This document shows, one piece after another, positions 44,427 through 51,496 of a DNA stretch of 64,000 bases (position 1 is its first letter; each line of letters starts with the position of its first letter). The translations under genes and the position numbers were made by a program. The stretch is from Sphingobacteriaceae bacterium (GTDB lineage: Bacteria; Bacteroidota; Bacteroidia; B-17B0; Aurantibacillaceae). The DNA is taken from contig CANKBS010000004.1 of the NCBI GenBank assembly GCA_947480015.1, positions 124,001 to 188,000 of the forward strand, written 5' to 3'. Below the pieces are notes generated by a model that worked only from the letters and a program-made list of their open reading frames with translations, searched no databases and had not been told where the DNA came from.

Positions 44427-45134
44427 TTATGGGCGATCGACTTGTTCGATTCCGTTTTCTTTTAAAGTAAAAAATTGCGGTTTTATTAAGCGTCGTTTCG
44501 CAATATAATCTTTATAAGAGGTTACATTGTTTTTTCTGCCGCTAATCACCGCATCAAAATTTTCGTGTAAGCCACATAATAATTCACTTCCTTCACGCAC
44601 GGCAAAAGCCCCGCCCGGAGAGGCCGTGAGATAATCCACCAATTTATGTTTGACACAATACTGAGTAAACAACGGGTTGGCTTTTTGATCCACCAAAATT
44701 CGTAAGCCACATACTTCAGCAATAGGGAGATCCAATACATCATCAAACACATAGGCCACCTCTTCGGGTTTAATGCCTTCTTTTTGACACAAAAAATTTA
44801 AGGCTTCCAACTTATGTGCGACTTTAAAAAACGAATAATTAAAACCTTCGCGTTCGCAAAAGAAAAATGCCGTGGCGTTTTTTTCTCCGCTTAGGATAGC
44901 AGTAATGGGATGCTTTCCGTTTTTTAAATAGTACGAGTAACGTAACAAATTTGTCCCCATACTGTCCACTTCCGAAAAGTTGGAACTGCCATTGGCATCT
45001 TTTTGTCCGTTGTTAAATACCCCATCCCAGTCAAACACAAAGGCCTTGATGTTTTTTAATTTGGCCTGCATCTCAACTGAATGCGTGATAAACCTGCCAC
45101 CCAATACCGAATATAAATTCTCTATTTCTGTCAT
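44427..45134 (-). CDS. KdsC-like HAD phosphatase
   Basis: A 235-residue HAD-fold protein. The catalytic Asp pair is D35/D37 in AFVFDWDGVFNNG; AILSGEKNATAFFF provides motif II (Ser) and VAYVFDDVLDLPIAEV the motif IV acids; a C-terminal extension (about 150-235) has SPGGAFAVREGSELL, as in KdsC/NeuAc-9-phosphatase-type enzymes. It probably dephosphorylates a sugar acid phosphate. It sits directly after a transaldolase-CBS gene. The ATG at 45134 falls in the T tract of that gene's terminator; Met22 (45071) is a possible alternative start but would drop a plausible LGGRF segment. Confidence 0.75.
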   Translation of the reverse strand: MTEIENLYSVLGGRFITHSVEMQAKLKNIKAFVFDWDGVFNNGQKDANGSSNFSEVDSMGTNLLRYSYYLKNGKHPITAILSGEKNATAFFFCEREGFNYSFFKVAHKLEALNFLCQKEGIKPEEVAYVFDDVLDLPIAEVCGLRILVDQKANPLFTQYCVKHKLVDYLTASPGGAFAVREGSELLCGLHENFDAVISGRKNNVTSYKDYIAKRRLIKPQFFTLKENGIEQVDRP

Positions 45135-45156
45135 AAAAAAAGCCCTTAAAAGGGCT
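45135..45156 (-). terminator. Short hairpin between the transaldolase-CBS and KdsC-like genes
   Basis: AGCCCTT (45141-45147) pairs with AAGGGCT (45150-45156) around a two-base loop and is followed on the minus strand by seven T that run into the KdsC-like ATG. It may be a full terminator or an attenuator that lowers phosphatase expression. Confidence 0.65.
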
Positions 45157-45169
45157 TAAATATTTTAGT

Positions 45170-46180
45170 TTATGATTTTAAATCCTGAATATCGAGCATG
45201 CCAATTGGTTTGCCGTTATCAGTCACCACAATGGTATCTACTGCTGTTTTTTTGAATAATACATTGGCCTCATTCAACAACACGCCTGCGTCAATGGTAA
45301 TAGGTTCGCGGTACTCAAGATCACTTAATTTTTTGTTTAACACATCGCGACCTTTATCCATGAGTAATTTACGCAACGAACCATCGGTGAATACACCTTT
45401 AATGCTACCATCTTTTTTCACTACGGTAATAGCGCCAAAATTAAATTCAGTCATTTTAATAATGGCATCGGTAAGATTAGTGTCTTCAGAAACTACCGGA
45501 TTAACACCGTTAATAGCTTCTTTCACACGCACCATCATTAAACGGGTATCGGCAATAAACTGGTCGGTACCCAAAGTGGTGAAATTATTTTCGGTTAATT
45601 GTTTTAATACTTTTAATGGAACAGTAATGGTATGAACACCAATGTTGATGGCATTGCGGACGTGTTCGGCATGACGCACCGACGAGAACATGATTTTTGT
45701 GTCGTATCCGTAAATTTCTACAGCATCAACACATTGTTCAACAAGTGCTAAAGCATCATGACCCTGATCTTGTAAACGACCAACCAGTGGACAAACATAA
45801 GTAGCTCCTGCTTGCATGGCCATATACGCTTGTTGTAAGGTATAAACCAAATGAACGTTAACTAAGTAACCTTTGTCTCTTAGCATTTTACAGGCTCTAA
45901 CACCTTCTAATGAAACCGGAATTTTGAATACCGTTTTGGTAGGATCTAAACCTAAAGCCAATTGGCGTTCTGCTTCGGCAAGAACTTCTTCGGCACTGTT
46001 ACCTAATGCTTCAATTTGAAGTACCGGAACCATTTTACTCAGTTTAACAATGGTGCCATCAATATCGTCAATCCCTTCCTTTTGCATAAAAGTGGGGGTA
46101 GTTGTTAAACCGTTTAAAAAACCAAGTTTAAAACCTTCTTCAATTTCCTTTAAGTTGGCTGAATCTAAATATAATTCCAT
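45170..46180 (-). CDS. Transaldolase-family aldolase fused to a CBS-domain pair
   Basis: A 336-residue fusion. Residues 1-215 are a small transaldolase/fructose-6-phosphate aldolase (MELYLDSANL opening, GLTTTPTF, Schiff-base Lys K86 in TVFKIPVSLEG, VYTLQQAYMAMQAGATYVCP, GVHTITVPLKVL). Residues about 225-336 are a CBS pair (TDAIIKMTEFNFGAITVVKKDG, split here as TEFNFGAITVV; KGVFTDGSLRKLL; VDTIVVTDNGKPIGMLDIQ) of the type found at the end of KdsD arabinose-5-phosphate isomerase. The substrate is unknown. With the KdsC-like phosphatase next to it, a sugar-acid or deoxy-sugar biosynthetic step is inferred. I see no SIS domain in this protein. Confidence 0.82.
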   Translation of the reverse strand: MELYLDSANLKEIEEGFKLGFLNGLTTTPTFMQKEGIDDIDGTIVKLSKMVPVLQIEALGNSAEEVLAEAERQLALGLDPTKTVFKIPVSLEGVRACKMLRDKGYLVNVHLVYTLQQAYMAMQAGATYVCPLVGRLQDQGHDALALVEQCVDAVEIYGYDTKIMFSSVRHAEHVRNAINIGVHTITVPLKVLKQLTENNFTTLGTDQFIADTRLMMVRVKEAINGVNPVVSEDTNLTDAIIKMTEFNFGAITVVKKDGSIKGVFTDGSLRKLLMDKGRDVLNKKLSDLEYREPITIDAGVLLNEANVLFKKTAVDTIVVTDNGKPIGMLDIQDLKS

Positions 46181-46321: not shown

Positions 46322-48529
46322 CTATTTAGACACCGTTAATTTTTGATTTACGGTTCCGTGTTGAGAACTTACTTTAATAAAATATACTCCCGAAGCCCAA
46401 TTCTCAGTGTTTAGCACAAGGCTGTTAACACCAGCCTCCATGCTTTTAGCTGGAGAATCAAATACAAGTTCGCCAACATTATTCATCACCGAAACCGATA
46501 CGTTTTCGTTTTGAATAAGGTTAATGGTTAGGTTAGTTAAACCTGAACTCGGATTCGGGAATACCGATACAGAACCCATTTCCATGCCAACACCCGAAAT
46601 ACCTGAACAGGCATTAACCGACACCGTTAAAGCAGAAGAATTATGGCAGGAATTAATTTCGGTACTCACCGCTGTATAACTTGTTGTGGCATTTGGCGTC
46701 ACTACAATACTCGAACCTGTTTGATTATTGCTCCAGCTATATGTTGCAGCCCCGCTTGCAGTTATGGTAAGGGCGTCGCCTTTGCAAATAACAGTTTTTG
46801 GAGCATTAATGCTAATGCTTTGTGTGGTACACAGTGGTTGACTCAAATTCACATTATCGATATACATGTTATTACCAAAGGCACTGGTAGCTGTAAACTT
46901 AACAATCACATTCGAATTTTGGTAGCCGGTTAAGGTCACCACTTCTTTTCTCCATTGAGAGGCGCTGGTTGGCACAAAAGCAGCTGTAACGGCCGCAGCA
47001 GTTGACAAAGCACTGCCTGCTTTAGAATACACATTGGTCCAGCTGGCGCCACAATCGGTACTTACCGACACATCCAATTGGTCATTTTCGGTTTGGTATT
47101 GTGCATACGCTACATCAAACGATAAAGTTGGGGCTGAGGTAGCGGTAAAGCCAATCGGAGGTAAAATCAGGTCGTCGGCATCGCCAATAACACTGTTACT
47201 GTAAAAATCGTATTTAGCAGCACCGGTACCCGAGGTTAAACTAATACCGTTAGCGGTTGCATTTCTGCTCCATGAAGCACCTGCATTTGCATTGTTGATA
47301 CCCCAGGCAGTTGGAGGGAAGGTTGCTGTAGCAAAAGGTTGCACAACTGGACTGCCAACAGGATAGCTCGAGGCTAAATAAAAGCTAGTGTTGGCTGAAT
47401 TATTTAAACCATTCACATCACCGCCACTTACCGAAACAATGTTGTAAGAAAACAAATGCCCACCCGGAAGGGTTGGAGTTATTGGATTTAAGTTAACTGT
47501 TGAACTGGCACCAACAGCAAGGCTTCCCGACCAAGTGTAATTTGGCGCGGCAATTCCATCGACATAAGGTGTTAGGGTTAAGGCTGTAATAGCGTTATTC
47601 CCATTATTACTAAATGAAACTTCCGGAGTAAAAGAAGTTCCGCAACTAAATGCGGTGACTTTAGCATATATGGCTTTCGCATCATTTGGTAAACTTTGCG
47701 GATTAGACCTTACAGCTTGAGCAACTTTTCTATTTCCATCATCTTGAATAAAACCTACAAAAGCAATTTGAGCTTTGTCTCTGGCATAGGCAGGAATAGG
47801 GCAGTTTAAAGTAAATGTTTGAACTTGACCAATGGTCCAGGTGCCGGCCATAGCTACACCGGTTTGAATGCTTGGGAAAGAGGCAATTGCAGCATCTTCA
47901 AAATCTTTTTCACCATTGGTGCCGGGTTGGGTTGCAAAGTGTATGGCTTTTTCAACCATCACGGTGCGGAACACTAAGGGTCCGTTTGCACTGAAAGAGG
48001 CGGTAGCCAAAATACTCACTGTTAAGTTAACCGAGCTGAACGTAGCATCCCAGGCGCGTGCCATGGTAACTGAAAAAGCAGAGGTATACGATTGAGCGGC
48101 TGCAATTACTGCATTAGTTACATAAGCAGGATGATCGGAAGCTGCGCCAAACAACCATTGGTGTTGTCCATCGAACAAACCGGTTGGGGCTGCGTTAATA
48201 CCGCTGGTAACAGCGGTGGTGGAGGTCCACTGACTAGGATAGCCGTAACCGGTGCCAGTAGCTTTATAACGCCAGTCAATTTCTATTTTGTTTGTCTGGT
48301 ATAACGACCAGGTGTTTGAAGGCGCACTTGGAATAGGCACCTGCCATTTAATGGCCACCACCAAAGCGGTGTTAGTGGGATTGGCTAAAATTAAATTTAA
48401 ACCTGGATTGGTGGACGCGCAAGGCGGACAGGTTTCTCCGGTAAATTCTTCAAATAAGGATAAACGCGGGGTTTGCGCAAAAACGCTCATTCCGGCTAAC
48501 ATCAATCCTGCAAGTAACTGTTTTTTCAT
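46322..48529 (-). CDS. T9SS-exported protein with N-terminal CPPC thioredoxin-like motif (paralog A)
   Basis: A 735-residue secreted protein. A signal peptide (ending VFAQ, residue 19) is followed by LFEEFTGETCPPCAST with a thioredoxin-like CPPC at C34-C37, then an Omp28-like domain (to about 290). Next come two beta-sandwich regions, a MAM/choice-of-anchor-J-like module (SFDVAYAQYQTENDQLDV, NNMYIDNVNL) and, unlike its paralogs, an extra PKD-like module (about 580-650, TASGAATYSWSNNQTGSS). The C-terminus is a T9SS type A tail (VFPNPSSG ... KLTVSK). Function is unknown; surface redox chemistry is possible but unproven. It has its own promoter and terminator. Confidence 0.82.
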   Translation of the reverse strand: MKKQLLAGLMLAGMSVFAQTPRLSLFEEFTGETCPPCASTNPGLNLILANPTNTALVVAIKWQVPIPSAPSNTWSLYQTNKIEIDWRYKATGTGYGYPSQWTSTTAVTSGINAAPTGLFDGQHQWLFGAASDHPAYVTNAVIAAAQSYTSAFSVTMARAWDATFSSVNLTVSILATASFSANGPLVFRTVMVEKAIHFATQPGTNGEKDFEDAAIASFPSIQTGVAMAGTWTIGQVQTFTLNCPIPAYARDKAQIAFVGFIQDDGNRKVAQAVRSNPQSLPNDAKAIYAKVTAFSCGTSFTPEVSFSNNGNNAITALTLTPYVDGIAAPNYTWSGSLAVGASSTVNLNPITPTLPGGHLFSYNIVSVSGGDVNGLNNSANTSFYLASSYPVGSPVVQPFATATFPPTAWGINNANAGASWSRNATANGISLTSGTGAAKYDFYSNSVIGDADDLILPPIGFTATSAPTLSFDVAYAQYQTENDQLDVSVSTDCGASWTNVYSKAGSALSTAAAVTAAFVPTSASQWRKEVVTLTGYQNSNVIVKFTATSAFGNNMYIDNVNLSQPLCTTQSISINAPKTVICKGDALTITASGAATYSWSNNQTGSSIVVTPNATTSYTAVSTEINSCHNSSALTVSVNACSGISGVGMEMGSVSVFPNPSSGLTNLTINLIQNENVSVSVMNNVGELVFDSPAKSMEAGVNSLVLNTENWASGVYFIKVSSQHGTVNQKLTVSK

Positions 48530-49531: not shown

Positions 49532-51496
49532 TTATTTTGTTAGGTTTAATTTTTTAACGGTAACACCATTGTTGCTTTCAACAAGCACACTGTAAACACC
49601 GGTCGAAAATGAACTCATGTCGATGATCGAGTTATTTGTTCCTGCAACCAGATTTAATTGTTTTTCCATAACCACTTGTCCTAATGTATTGATCACTGAA
49701 ACCTTAGCAGTGCCTGCTTGTGTGGTAGTAATGTTTAGGTTGGTCATACCGTTGCTTGGATTAGGGAACAGGTTGACCGTAGAAGCCGCTGTGGCCACTT
49801 TTGCAATACCAACCGGAGCCGATTGTGATAAGTTCACGTTATCAATGTACATGTTGTTACCATTACCATTGGTAGCAACAAATTTACATAACACGTTAGC
49901 GGTATTAAATCCTGTTAAATTTAACAGTTCGGTTCTCCATTGTGAAGGATCATTTGGATCAGGCACATAAGCATAAGTTACTGGAAGTGCAGAAGCAGCA
50001 AGTGCAGCACCTGAATTACTGTAGATGGTTGACCAAGTCGTACCACAATCGTTAGAAACCATTACTTCCAATTTATCATTACTGGCACCATCTTTTTGTG
50101 CGTAAGCCACATCAAATACCATCATCGGAACCGCCGAACCGGCTAAATTCATTGGCGGTAAAAATAATTCATCTTTGTCACCAACATTGGTATTAGTAAA
50201 GAAATCGTATTTAGTAGATTGTGAAGAAAGGTTGTAACCACCGGCAACACCGTTTCTCGACCAGGTCGGGCCATTATCCGCATTTACAACGGTCCACCCC
50301 ACAGGTGGGTATTGGGCTAAAATAAATCCTTCGGCAACCGGCGCGCCAAGATAAGATGTAGCTACCACAAAATTAATTTTAGTGGTGTTTTTAGTTACGT
50401 TGTAAACCGGAGAGTTCATTACAACACCACAAGAGAATGAGTGAGCGCCAATTGCTGTTGGTGTAGGCATTGCATTTAAAGTAATGTTAGCCGAACCACC
50501 AACCGGAATACTACCGGTCCATAAAGTTGGAGCACCAACTACACCATCAACATAAGGTGTTAAGGTTAAAGAAGTAATAGGATTTAAAGTGCCATCATTT
50601 TGAATGGTTACTTGTGGGGCTACAGTAGCTGTACAAGCTACAGGAACTTTAGAAGAAATACCGGCAATAGCATCAGGCGGAAGGGCTTGTTTATCGGCTC
50701 TAACAGCTTGCGCAACTTTTTGGTTACCATCATCCTGAATAAAACCAACAAAGGCTACTTCGTCTTTATTTCTGGTATAAGAAGGAATTGGGCAGTTAAG
50801 TGTAAAGGTTTGTGTTTGACCGATGGTCCATGTGCCAGCCATAGAAGTGCCATTTTGTAAGGTAGGGAAAGATTTAATAGCCACATCTTCAAAATCTTTT
50901 TCACCATTTGTGCCTGGTGCTACTAAAAAGTGAATAGCTCTTTCAACCATCACACAACGGAATTTTAAAGCACCAACGGCAGTAAAATTAGCTGTAGCTT
51001 GAATGGCAACTGTTAAAGTAATGGCGCTACAGGTTTGATCCCAAGCACGGTTCATAGTAATTGAAAAAGCAGAGGTATACGATTGCGCAGTAGCAATAAT
51101 CCCTGAGGATAAACCTGCAGGGTGACCCGAAGCTGCACCAAAAACAGTGGCTTCTTGTCCATCAATTTTGCTGGATGGGGCTGAGTTAATGGCCGGCGTG
51201 TATCCGTAACCACCTGATGCAGTCGTTCTCCATCTCCAGTCAATTTCTACTTTATTGGTTTGGTATAAGGACCAAGTATTACTAGGCGCACTAGGAATTG
51301 GCACCTGCCATTTTATAGGAACAATTTTGGTGGTGTTGGTTGGTAAGGCTAACAAGGTATTTAAACCGGGATTAGTGGATGCACAAGGCGGGCAAGTTTC
51401 ACCCGTAAATTCCTCATACAAGGATAAACGAGGCGTTTGGGCAAAGGCAGTGATTCCGAGCATCACTAAACTAAATGATAGTAAGTTTTTTTTCAT
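49532..51496 (-). CDS. T9SS-exported protein with N-terminal CPPC thioredoxin-like motif (paralog B)
   Basis: A 654-residue secreted protein. The signal peptide ends TAFAQ (residue 20); YEEFTGETCPPCAST carries CPPC at C35-C38. The Omp28-like region contains the same W..P.PSAPSNTWSLYQT and FVGFIQDDGN.KVAQAVR segments as paralogs A and C. A beta-sandwich and a choice-of-anchor-J-like module (FDVAYAQKDGASNDKLEVM, NNMYIDNVNL) precede the T9SS tail (LFPNPSNGMTNLNI ... KKLNLTK). The PKD-like insertion of paralog A is absent. A -7 element 44 bases upstream gives it an independent promoter. Function unknown. Confidence 0.82.
   Translation of the reverse strand: MKKNLLSFSLVMLGITAFAQTPRLSLYEEFTGETCPPCASTNPGLNTLLALPTNTTKIVPIKWQVPIPSAPSNTWSLYQTNKVEIDWRWRTTASGGYGYTPAINSAPSSKIDGQEATVFGAASGHPAGLSSGIIATAQSYTSAFSITMNRAWDQTCSAITLTVAIQATANFTAVGALKFRCVMVERAIHFLVAPGTNGEKDFEDVAIKSFPTLQNGTSMAGTWTIGQTQTFTLNCPIPSYTRNKDEVAFVGFIQDDGNQKVAQAVRADKQALPPDAIAGISSKVPVACTATVAPQVTIQNDGTLNPITSLTLTPYVDGVVGAPTLWTGSIPVGGSANITLNAMPTPTAIGAHSFSCGVVMNSPVYNVTKNTTKINFVVATSYLGAPVAEGFILAQYPPVGWTVVNADNGPTWSRNGVAGGYNLSSQSTKYDFFTNTNVGDKDELFLPPMNLAGSAVPMMVFDVAYAQKDGASNDKLEVMVSNDCGTTWSTIYSNSGAALAASALPVTYAYVPDPNDPSQWRTELLNLTGFNTANVLCKFVATNGNGNNMYIDNVNLSQSAPVGIAKVATAASTVNLFPNPSNGMTNLNITTTQAGTAKVSVINTLGQVVMEKQLNLVAGTNNSIIDMSSFSTGVYSVLVESNNGVTVKKLNLTK

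Follow-up and report, generated by a model that had tools for sequence, protein, structure and literature searches.

A transaldolase–CBS fusion of Bacteroidota as a probable domain-swapped substitute for KdsD in Kdo synthesis

What does a transaldolase do with the regulatory domain of a sugar-phosphate isomerase? The question is raised by two neighboring open reading frames (ORFs) on the minus strand of a 64,000-nucleotide stretch of a Sphingobacteriaceae bacterium genome (GenBank assembly GCA_947480015.1, contig CANKBS010000004.1, positions 124,001 to 188,000 of the forward strand; hereafter, the window). One encodes a protein of 336 amino acids (aa) in which a transaldolase-like domain is fused to a pair of CBS domains (TAL-CBS), and the other a HAD-type phosphatase of 235 aa. 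CBS pairs of the same kind end KdsD, the enzyme of the first committed step in the synthesis of 3-deoxy-D-manno-octulosonic acid (Kdo), a core sugar found almost universally in the outer membranes of Gram-negative bacteria. This step is taught as the conversion of ribulose 5-phosphate to arabinose 5-phosphate (A5P), which KdsA requires and KdsD usually supplies. TAL-CBS is best read as a domain-swapped KdsD replacement in Kdo synthesis, rather than as part of a route to an unusual sugar, and genome context makes the fusion, instead of KdsD, the probable source of A5P.

An aldolase barrel in the place of an isomerase domain

An earlier reading of this DNA, made from the letters alone (the sequence-only reading), had described an aldolase with its Schiff-base lysine, a KdsD-type CBS pair, and a KdsC-like phosphatase; profile searches and alignments confirmed this anatomy (Table 1). 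In a Pfam profile search, TAL-CBS belongs to the TAL_FSA superfamily (PF00923, E = 4.5e-35, 121.8 bits against a cut-off of 27), of which it keeps the Schiff-base lysine, and it also matches the CBS profile PF00571 (E = 8.1e-14). It passes no cut-off among the 25 NCBIfam families shown. The best matches are the TalC/FSA equivalog TIGR00875 on residues 1–211, at 162.5 of the 245.95 bits required, and the KpsF/KdsD families on the CBS part (TIGR00393, E = 2.6e-16, 60 bits; PRK10892, E = 7.1e-15). TIGR00393 is matched only at its positions 151–267 of 268, and the SIS domain of that family is missing. An AlphaFold2 (AF2) model of the whole fusion (pLDDT 90.7, pTM 0.74) superposed on the structures 3s0c, over 213 residues, and 3r8r with the same Z-score of 28.1; among the lower structural matches was 3upb (Z = 21.0), by its title a transaldolase covalently complexed with A5P.

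Table 1. Features of the TAL-CBS locus in window coordinates; residue equivalences refer to E. coli TalB and FsaA and to the TalC of the window's own genome.
Feature	Position	Strand	Remarks
TAL-CBS fusion, 336 aa	45170..46180	-	Proposed A5P-forming enzyme replacing KdsD
Transaldolase/FSA domain, residues 1-212	45545..46180	-	PF00923 at residues 3-201; AF2 model
KdsD-type CBS pair, residues 213-336	45173..45544	-	Proposed CMP-Kdo sensor; sequence, motif, fold
Thr28 codon	46097..46099	-	TalB Asn35, FsaA Asn28; Thr in 65/65 fusion proteins, Asn in TalB, FsaA and own TalC
Lys86 codon, Schiff-base lysine	45923..45925	-	TalB K132, FsaA K85; invariant in 65/65
His110 codon	45851..45853	-	TalB Thr156, FsaA Thr109; His in 65/65, Thr in TalB, FsaA and own TalC
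Cys130-Pro131-Leu132 codons	45785..45793	-	TalB Ser176-Pro-Phe178, FsaA Ala129-Pro-Tyr131; C130 in 64/65, L132 in 65/65
Terminator-like hairpin	45140..45157	-	T tract runs into the HAD ATG (GGGCTTTTTTTATG)
KdsC-like HAD phosphatase, 235 aa	44427..45134	-	Proposed Kdo-8-phosphate phosphatase

Compared with known proteins, TAL-CBS combines two families. KdsD, KpsF, and GutQ consist of a SIS domain followed by a CBS pair; the fusion shares the type of CBS pair but carries a class I aldolase barrel where the SIS domain would sit, and it holds the same place in Kdo synthesis, judging by its genome context and complementary distribution (described below). With FsaA and the TalC-type transaldolases of PF00923 it has in common the fold, the Schiff-base lysine, Asp6, and Arg135, whereas it differs from them by four replacements (N35T, T156H, S176C, and F178L in TalB numbering), by the CBS pair, and by its location in Kdo operons.

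The active site was compared in an alignment of 65 fusion proteins with TalB and FsaA of E. coli and with an ordinary, unfused TalC encoded elsewhere in the window's own genome. All 65 keep the TalB residues D17, T33, T34, E96, K132, N154, R181, S226, and R228 (i.e., D6, T26, T27, E57, K86, N108, R135, S167, and R169 of TAL-CBS). Of the ten residues that form the TalB active site (Asp17, Asn35, Glu96, Lys132, Asn154, Thr156, Ser176, Phe178, Arg181, and Arg228), the fusion retains six and replaces Asn35, Thr156, Ser176, and Phe178, while the organism's own TalC has the full set with no replacements. The pairs S176/FsaA A129 and F178/FsaA Y131 are known donor and acid-base positions, and structures mutated at all four of these residues occur among the structural matches listed. 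As read from the alignment, the residue pattern points to a lysine Schiff-base enzyme for a phosphorylated substrate and not to ordinary dihydroxyacetone transfer.

The CBS pair is of KdsD type by sequence. Its closest solved relatives are the A5P isomerases 4o9k, 3fna, and 3k2v (54.5, 43.9, and 41.3 bits, respectively, the next CBS protein scoring 25.8), and the motif TDG.LR is common to the pair and E. coli KdsD. Modelled alone (pLDDT 90.7), it superposed on three A5P isomerases with Z-scores of 16.2, 15.6, and 15.5 and identities of 28, 28, and 29%, the highest identities among the matches listed. Gating of the fusion through this pair is plausible. The ligand of 4o9k is CMP-Kdo, and we infer that this end product, acting in feedback, would be a more probable effector than just any nucleotide.

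Distribution of the fusion and its partners in Kdo synthesis

The sequence-only reading had named a rare, isolated fusion event as the outcome that would speak against its proposal. An accidental or rare fusion is ruled out by a fusion-type match in 84 of the 87 genomes of the window's family and by relatives found across the GTDB. In 81 family genomes, the match extends over at least 300 residues with 74–93% identity (the window's own copy apart), and the other three matches are fragments; G062 and G076, where the only match is an unfused TalC, were left out of the 84, and G056 had no match. An unfused TalC, 34–40% identical, is also present in most of the 87 genomes. In a GTDB-wide scan that covered 84,980 species genomes, 489 relatives were reported; the best 80, which provide the locus statistics given here, include Raineya, Thermonema, Thermoflexibacter, and Flammeovirga.

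The neighborhood of these 80 loci was characterized by clustering the flanking ORFs without a prior gene list. The clusters recovered were the HAD phosphatase (53 loci), KdsA (50), KdsB (23), an aminotransferase (15), and a dehydrogenase (15), every other cluster being found at no more than 5 of the 80 loci; this unbiased result rules out a chance neighborhood. Where the contig left room, kdsA lay directly upstream of the fusion in 44 of 73 loci and the HAD gene directly downstream in 49 of 75. At least one partner gene was present in 63 of the 80 loci, and in 44 of the 57 with 3 kb or more on each flank. G471 has the order kdsB-kdsA-fusion and G177 the order kdsA-fusion-HAD-kdsB, whereas G232 and G378 have kdsA-fusion-HAD. 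A sugar-epimerase-like gene lies beyond the operon in G177 and G378. Two KdsB proteins tested pass TIGR00466. These neighbors, which are ordinary kdsA and kdsB genes, joined in some loci by kdnA and kdnB (discussed below), give no support to the unusual sugar or sugar acid that the sequence-only reading envisaged as the product.

KdsD and the fusion are distributed in a complementary manner. In a draw of 395 genomes from the phylum, 283 have KdsD (277 over the cut-off), 288 have KdsA, and six have the fusion. The 288 genomes with KdsA comprise 277 with KdsD, six with the fusion, five with neither, and none with both (Fisher p = 6e-10, a value that treats genomes as independent and is overstated since they are related). 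Among the 97 KdsA-positive genomes of the same class, 92 have KdsD without the fusion, five have the fusion without KdsD, and none has both or neither. Eighteen fusion genomes were chosen for testing, 13 within the family and five outside it. All 18 encode a KdsA over the TIGR01362 cut-off and 17 encode WaaA, the exception being G002 (93% complete); no SIS-containing KdsD was found in 17 of the 18, where the KdsD profile matches CBS parts only. Families f3, f9, f11, and f18 contain fusion genomes as well as KdsD-positive ones, so the switch of enzymes probably happened several times. Since the fusion probably replaces KdsD and its neighbors are those of ordinary Kdo synthesis, its product is most likely A5P en route to Kdo.

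KdsA proteins of fusion loci form a distinct clade (support 100/100) on a stem branch of 1.09, made up of 66 fusion-paired rows and that of genome G335. The rows were drawn from 50 loci and from 17 of the 18 fusion genomes (G177 was left out), some genomes being represented twice (e.g., L058 and L074), and the tree holds 101 of 103 rows, two shorter than 200 aa having been omitted; examples of the fusion type are found at L067:8428-9258 and L213:9394-10221. Seven changes are fixed relative to 18 hand-picked KdsD-paired KdsA: A65D, F121Y, R124M, K143H, Q207R, P209Y, and S252C, each present in 66 or 67 rows and numbered by a reference row that starts before its ATG. The Lys-to-His change falls in KKGQF, the Ala-to-Asp change just before NRSS, and the new Arg in the THSVQ segment. 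R124 corresponds to R106 of Aquifex aeolicus KdsA, as a chain with Gly at that place, which we take to be the R106G mutant, aligns there.

Genome G335 separates this KdsA from the fusion. It belongs to the same family as the fusion-bearing G276, its sister in the KdsA tree (100/100), and has the gene order kdnA-kdnB-kdsA-HAD-kdsB (kdnA and kdnB by resemblance), with no fusion between kdsA and the HAD gene and none elsewhere in the genome at E <= 1e-50. The fusion-type KdsA is its only KdsA (E <= 1e-30), and a full-length KdsD (320 bits) is encoded elsewhere in the genome. It seems, then, that this one type of KdsA functions downstream of either enzyme, an argument that the fusion and KdsD alike deliver A5P. 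Among 18 further KdsA proteins, 13 from genomes with KdsD and five from genomes lacking both genes, selected mainly because of low scores or because both genes were absent, 17 were ordinary on the motifs caught (G201 and G389 each with one motif missed or misread) and only that of G335 was of the fusion type; overall, KdsA was examined in 31 of the 277 genomes that hold both KdsA and KdsD. As read by eye, the full KdsD gene adjoins a recQ-like helicase gene in both L198 (G335) and L212 (G050:C87), which is perhaps the usual KdsD site in Bacteroidota.

Proposed chemistry and rival explanations

In the mechanism that we propose, a transaldolase-fold domain would have displaced the SIS isomerase domain, with the KdsD-type CBS pair as regulator. 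Lys86 would bind a two-carbon glycolaldehyde unit as an aldimine/enamine, which would add to glyceraldehyde 3-phosphate (GA3P) to form A5P, the phosphate of GA3P being held by Arg135 and Arg169, as suggested by homology with transaldolase. Either free glycolaldehyde or ribose 5-phosphate (R5P) could donate the two-carbon unit; R5P is physiologically the easier source, and with it the net reaction would be an epimerization at C2. A5P would then be used by KdsA to make Kdo-8-phosphate, from which the HAD phosphatase and/or a separate KdsC would remove the phosphate before KdsB forms CMP-Kdo for WaaA; CMP-Kdo binding to the CBS pair would brake TAL-CBS. E. coli FsaA is reported to convert glycolaldehyde and GA3P to A5P only (PMC9947464, citing earlier work); therefore, the aldol stereochemistry of this family fits A5P.

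Several observations weigh against this reading. G050 (93% complete, 220 contigs) carries both the fusion and a full KdsD. The five KdsA-positive genomes with neither enzyme (G109, G286, G358, G389, and G444) imply that other A5P sources, or gaps, exist: a renewed search at E <= 1e-5 found no KdsD in the first four, and G444 is 66% complete. G109 is listed as 100% complete, belongs to the same phylum, and may hold a third A5P source or a gap. Thirteen of the 57 loci that have 3 kb or more to each side carry none of the partner genes, and no conserved glycolaldehyde-producing gene stands out in the clustering of neighbors. The genome of the window carries kdsA on a different contig from the fusion, and 15 of the 18 fusion genomes, this one included, hold an ordinary KdsC besides the HAD phosphatase. 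The fold match of the CBS pair to A5P isomerases ties on Z-score with other CBS pairs. Lastly, the equivalent of A. aeolicus R106 is Met in all 67 fusion-paired KdsA rows and Arg in all 18 KdsD-paired ones. We assume that R106 binds the phosphate of A5P from the neighboring subunit, although the portions of the KdsA literature consulted hold no statement on this residue, and its loss could mean a different substrate.

Four rival explanations bear on these points, the nearest of which keeps the product and alters only the chemistry. TAL-CBS may be an R5P 2-epimerase: with R5P bound to Lys86 as an aldimine, His110 would shift the proton at C2, or the C2–C3 bond would break and be made again from the opposite face. 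We know of no enzyme of this family with such an activity, and the precedent of FsaA is a simple aldol reaction; yet His110 is invariant at the position of TalB Thr156, and R5P is a standing metabolite that dispenses with free glycolaldehyde, for which no source stands out nearby. In addition, the variant TalB F178Y reportedly yields both C2 epimers, A5P and R5P (PMC9947464, citing earlier work). As a rival taken by itself, the epimerase is a tentative possibility; once A5P formation is granted, the aldol and epimerase variants seem about equally likely. Alternatively, the fusion could be an ordinary transaldolase or fructose-6-phosphate aldolase that, controlled by CMP-Kdo, does no more than supply Kdo synthesis with pentose phosphates while another enzyme makes A5P. 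The retained fold, Lys86, Asp6, Glu57, Asn108, Arg135, and Arg169 would suit this role, but 64 or 65 of the 65 proteins carry a replacement at each of four active-site positions, the genome also encodes a TalC in which the set is complete, and the complementarity with KdsD and the swap in G335 are left unexplained, which together make a pentose-phosphate transaldolase improbable.

The altered KdsA admits a different ulosonate, made from another aldose or aldose phosphate that the fusion would provide, and its seven fixed changes and long stem branch speak for this reading. We nevertheless regard it as unlikely in equal degree, as in G335 a classical KdsD is the only known source of A5P for the altered KdsA. 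Moreover, both KdsB proteins tested fall in the ordinary family, WaaA is retained in nearly all fusion genomes, KdnA and KdnB act on Kdo (with KdnA recognized by its best solved relative), and the new KdsA Arg could take over phosphate binding. Finally, TAL-CBS might be no enzyme at all but a sensor of CMP-Kdo that regulates KdsA through complex formation. Its clustering with kdsA and co-variation with the altered KdsA would agree with this role; however, Lys86 and most of the catalytic residues do not vary among the 65 proteins, and G335 keeps the altered KdsA without TAL-CBS, so that a non-catalytic role is very hard to credit.

Phosphatase, further neighbors, and meaning for Kdo synthesis

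The HAD phosphatase, present in 80 of the 87 family genomes, resembles KdsC at a distance. It matches the KdsC families PRK09484 (E = 1.2e-14, 54.4 bits) and TIGR01670 (36.7 bits) below their cut-offs of 208 and 106.95 bits, respectively. HAD enzymes have the catalytic motifs DxDG, Lys, and DD, and the segments DWDG, HKLEAL, and VFDDVLD of the window protein hold them in alignment with E. coli KdsC. The two proteins thus share the HAD motifs and the 54-bit PRK09484 match, but KdsC measures 188 aa against 235 aa, and the window HAD stays well below the curated cut-offs. As a protein over the TIGR01670 cut-off is encoded elsewhere in 15 of 19 genomes (the 18 fusion genomes and G335), the HAD phosphatase is rejected as the sole KdsC in general; G471, for instance, has no HAD gene at the locus and two TIGR01670 proteins over the cut-off. 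In the fusion genomes G042, G177, and G378, where no KdsC over the cut-off was found, the HAD phosphatase may perform the Kdo-8-phosphate phosphatase step; where an ordinary KdsC is also present, its share of this step is uncertain. The hairpin between the two genes may set the ratio of HAD to fusion. Of 30 loci examined, family loci L003-L031 among them, 22 have the HAD gene directly downstream by script, and 18 of these contain a similar hairpin, with stem sequences that differ between loci and pairing that is kept.

The aminotransferase found at 15 of the 80 loci is a putative KdnA: the one copy searched had 8-amino-3,8-dideoxy-manno-octulosonate transaminase (5k8b) as its best solved relative, at 423 bits against 169 for the next. 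The accompanying dehydrogenase we take to be KdnB from its context. Genes of both types adjoin the Kdo operon at 15 of the 80 loci, within the range L074-L153, in Bacteroidota and Ignavibacteria records, which suggests an 8-amino-Kdo (Kdo8N) lipopolysaccharide in these organisms. KdnA and KdnB act on Kdo in the Kdo8N pathway of Shewanella. That pathway shares its aminotransferase with only part of the fusion loci, works downstream of Kdo, and has no part in A5P formation. In the window itself, no further Kdo gene was recognized next to these two, no search of the genome having been aimed at kdsB. The next gene downstream of the pair encodes a YfiT-type bacillithiol transferase. Two secreted-looking proteins encoded at 46322-48529 and 49532-51496 have nearly identical N-terminal regions (TPRLSLFEEFTGETCPPCAS and TPRLSLYEEFTGETCPPCAS, respectively), and the product of 46322-48529 carries a C-terminal Por secretion-system sorting domain.

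The sequence-only reading knew of no described pathway with this fusion, and we found none either: among the matches listed in searches of open PMC text, some of which may miss hyphenated spelling, no paper links a transaldolase or a transaldolase–CBS protein to bacterial A5P or Kdo synthesis. On the whole, we lean toward a new natural route to Kdo, in which A5P would be made by C–C bond chemistry or Schiff-base epimerization of R5P on a transaldolase scaffold, under the control of CMP-Kdo and with a re-wired KdsA, and in which the fusion would have replaced KdsD and been replaced by KdsD in at least one lineage. If so, many Bacteroidota, as represented in the best 80 of 489 relatives, make A5P by an unrelated aldolase-fold enzyme, and the KdsD gap in fusion genomes is explained. 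TAL-CBS would then be a natural case of a catalytic domain exchanged while the regulatory domain stays of the old type, as well as an ‘A5P aldolase’, perhaps a regulated one, already provided by nature and of the sort wanted for synthetic glycolaldehyde-assimilation pathways (PMC9947464).

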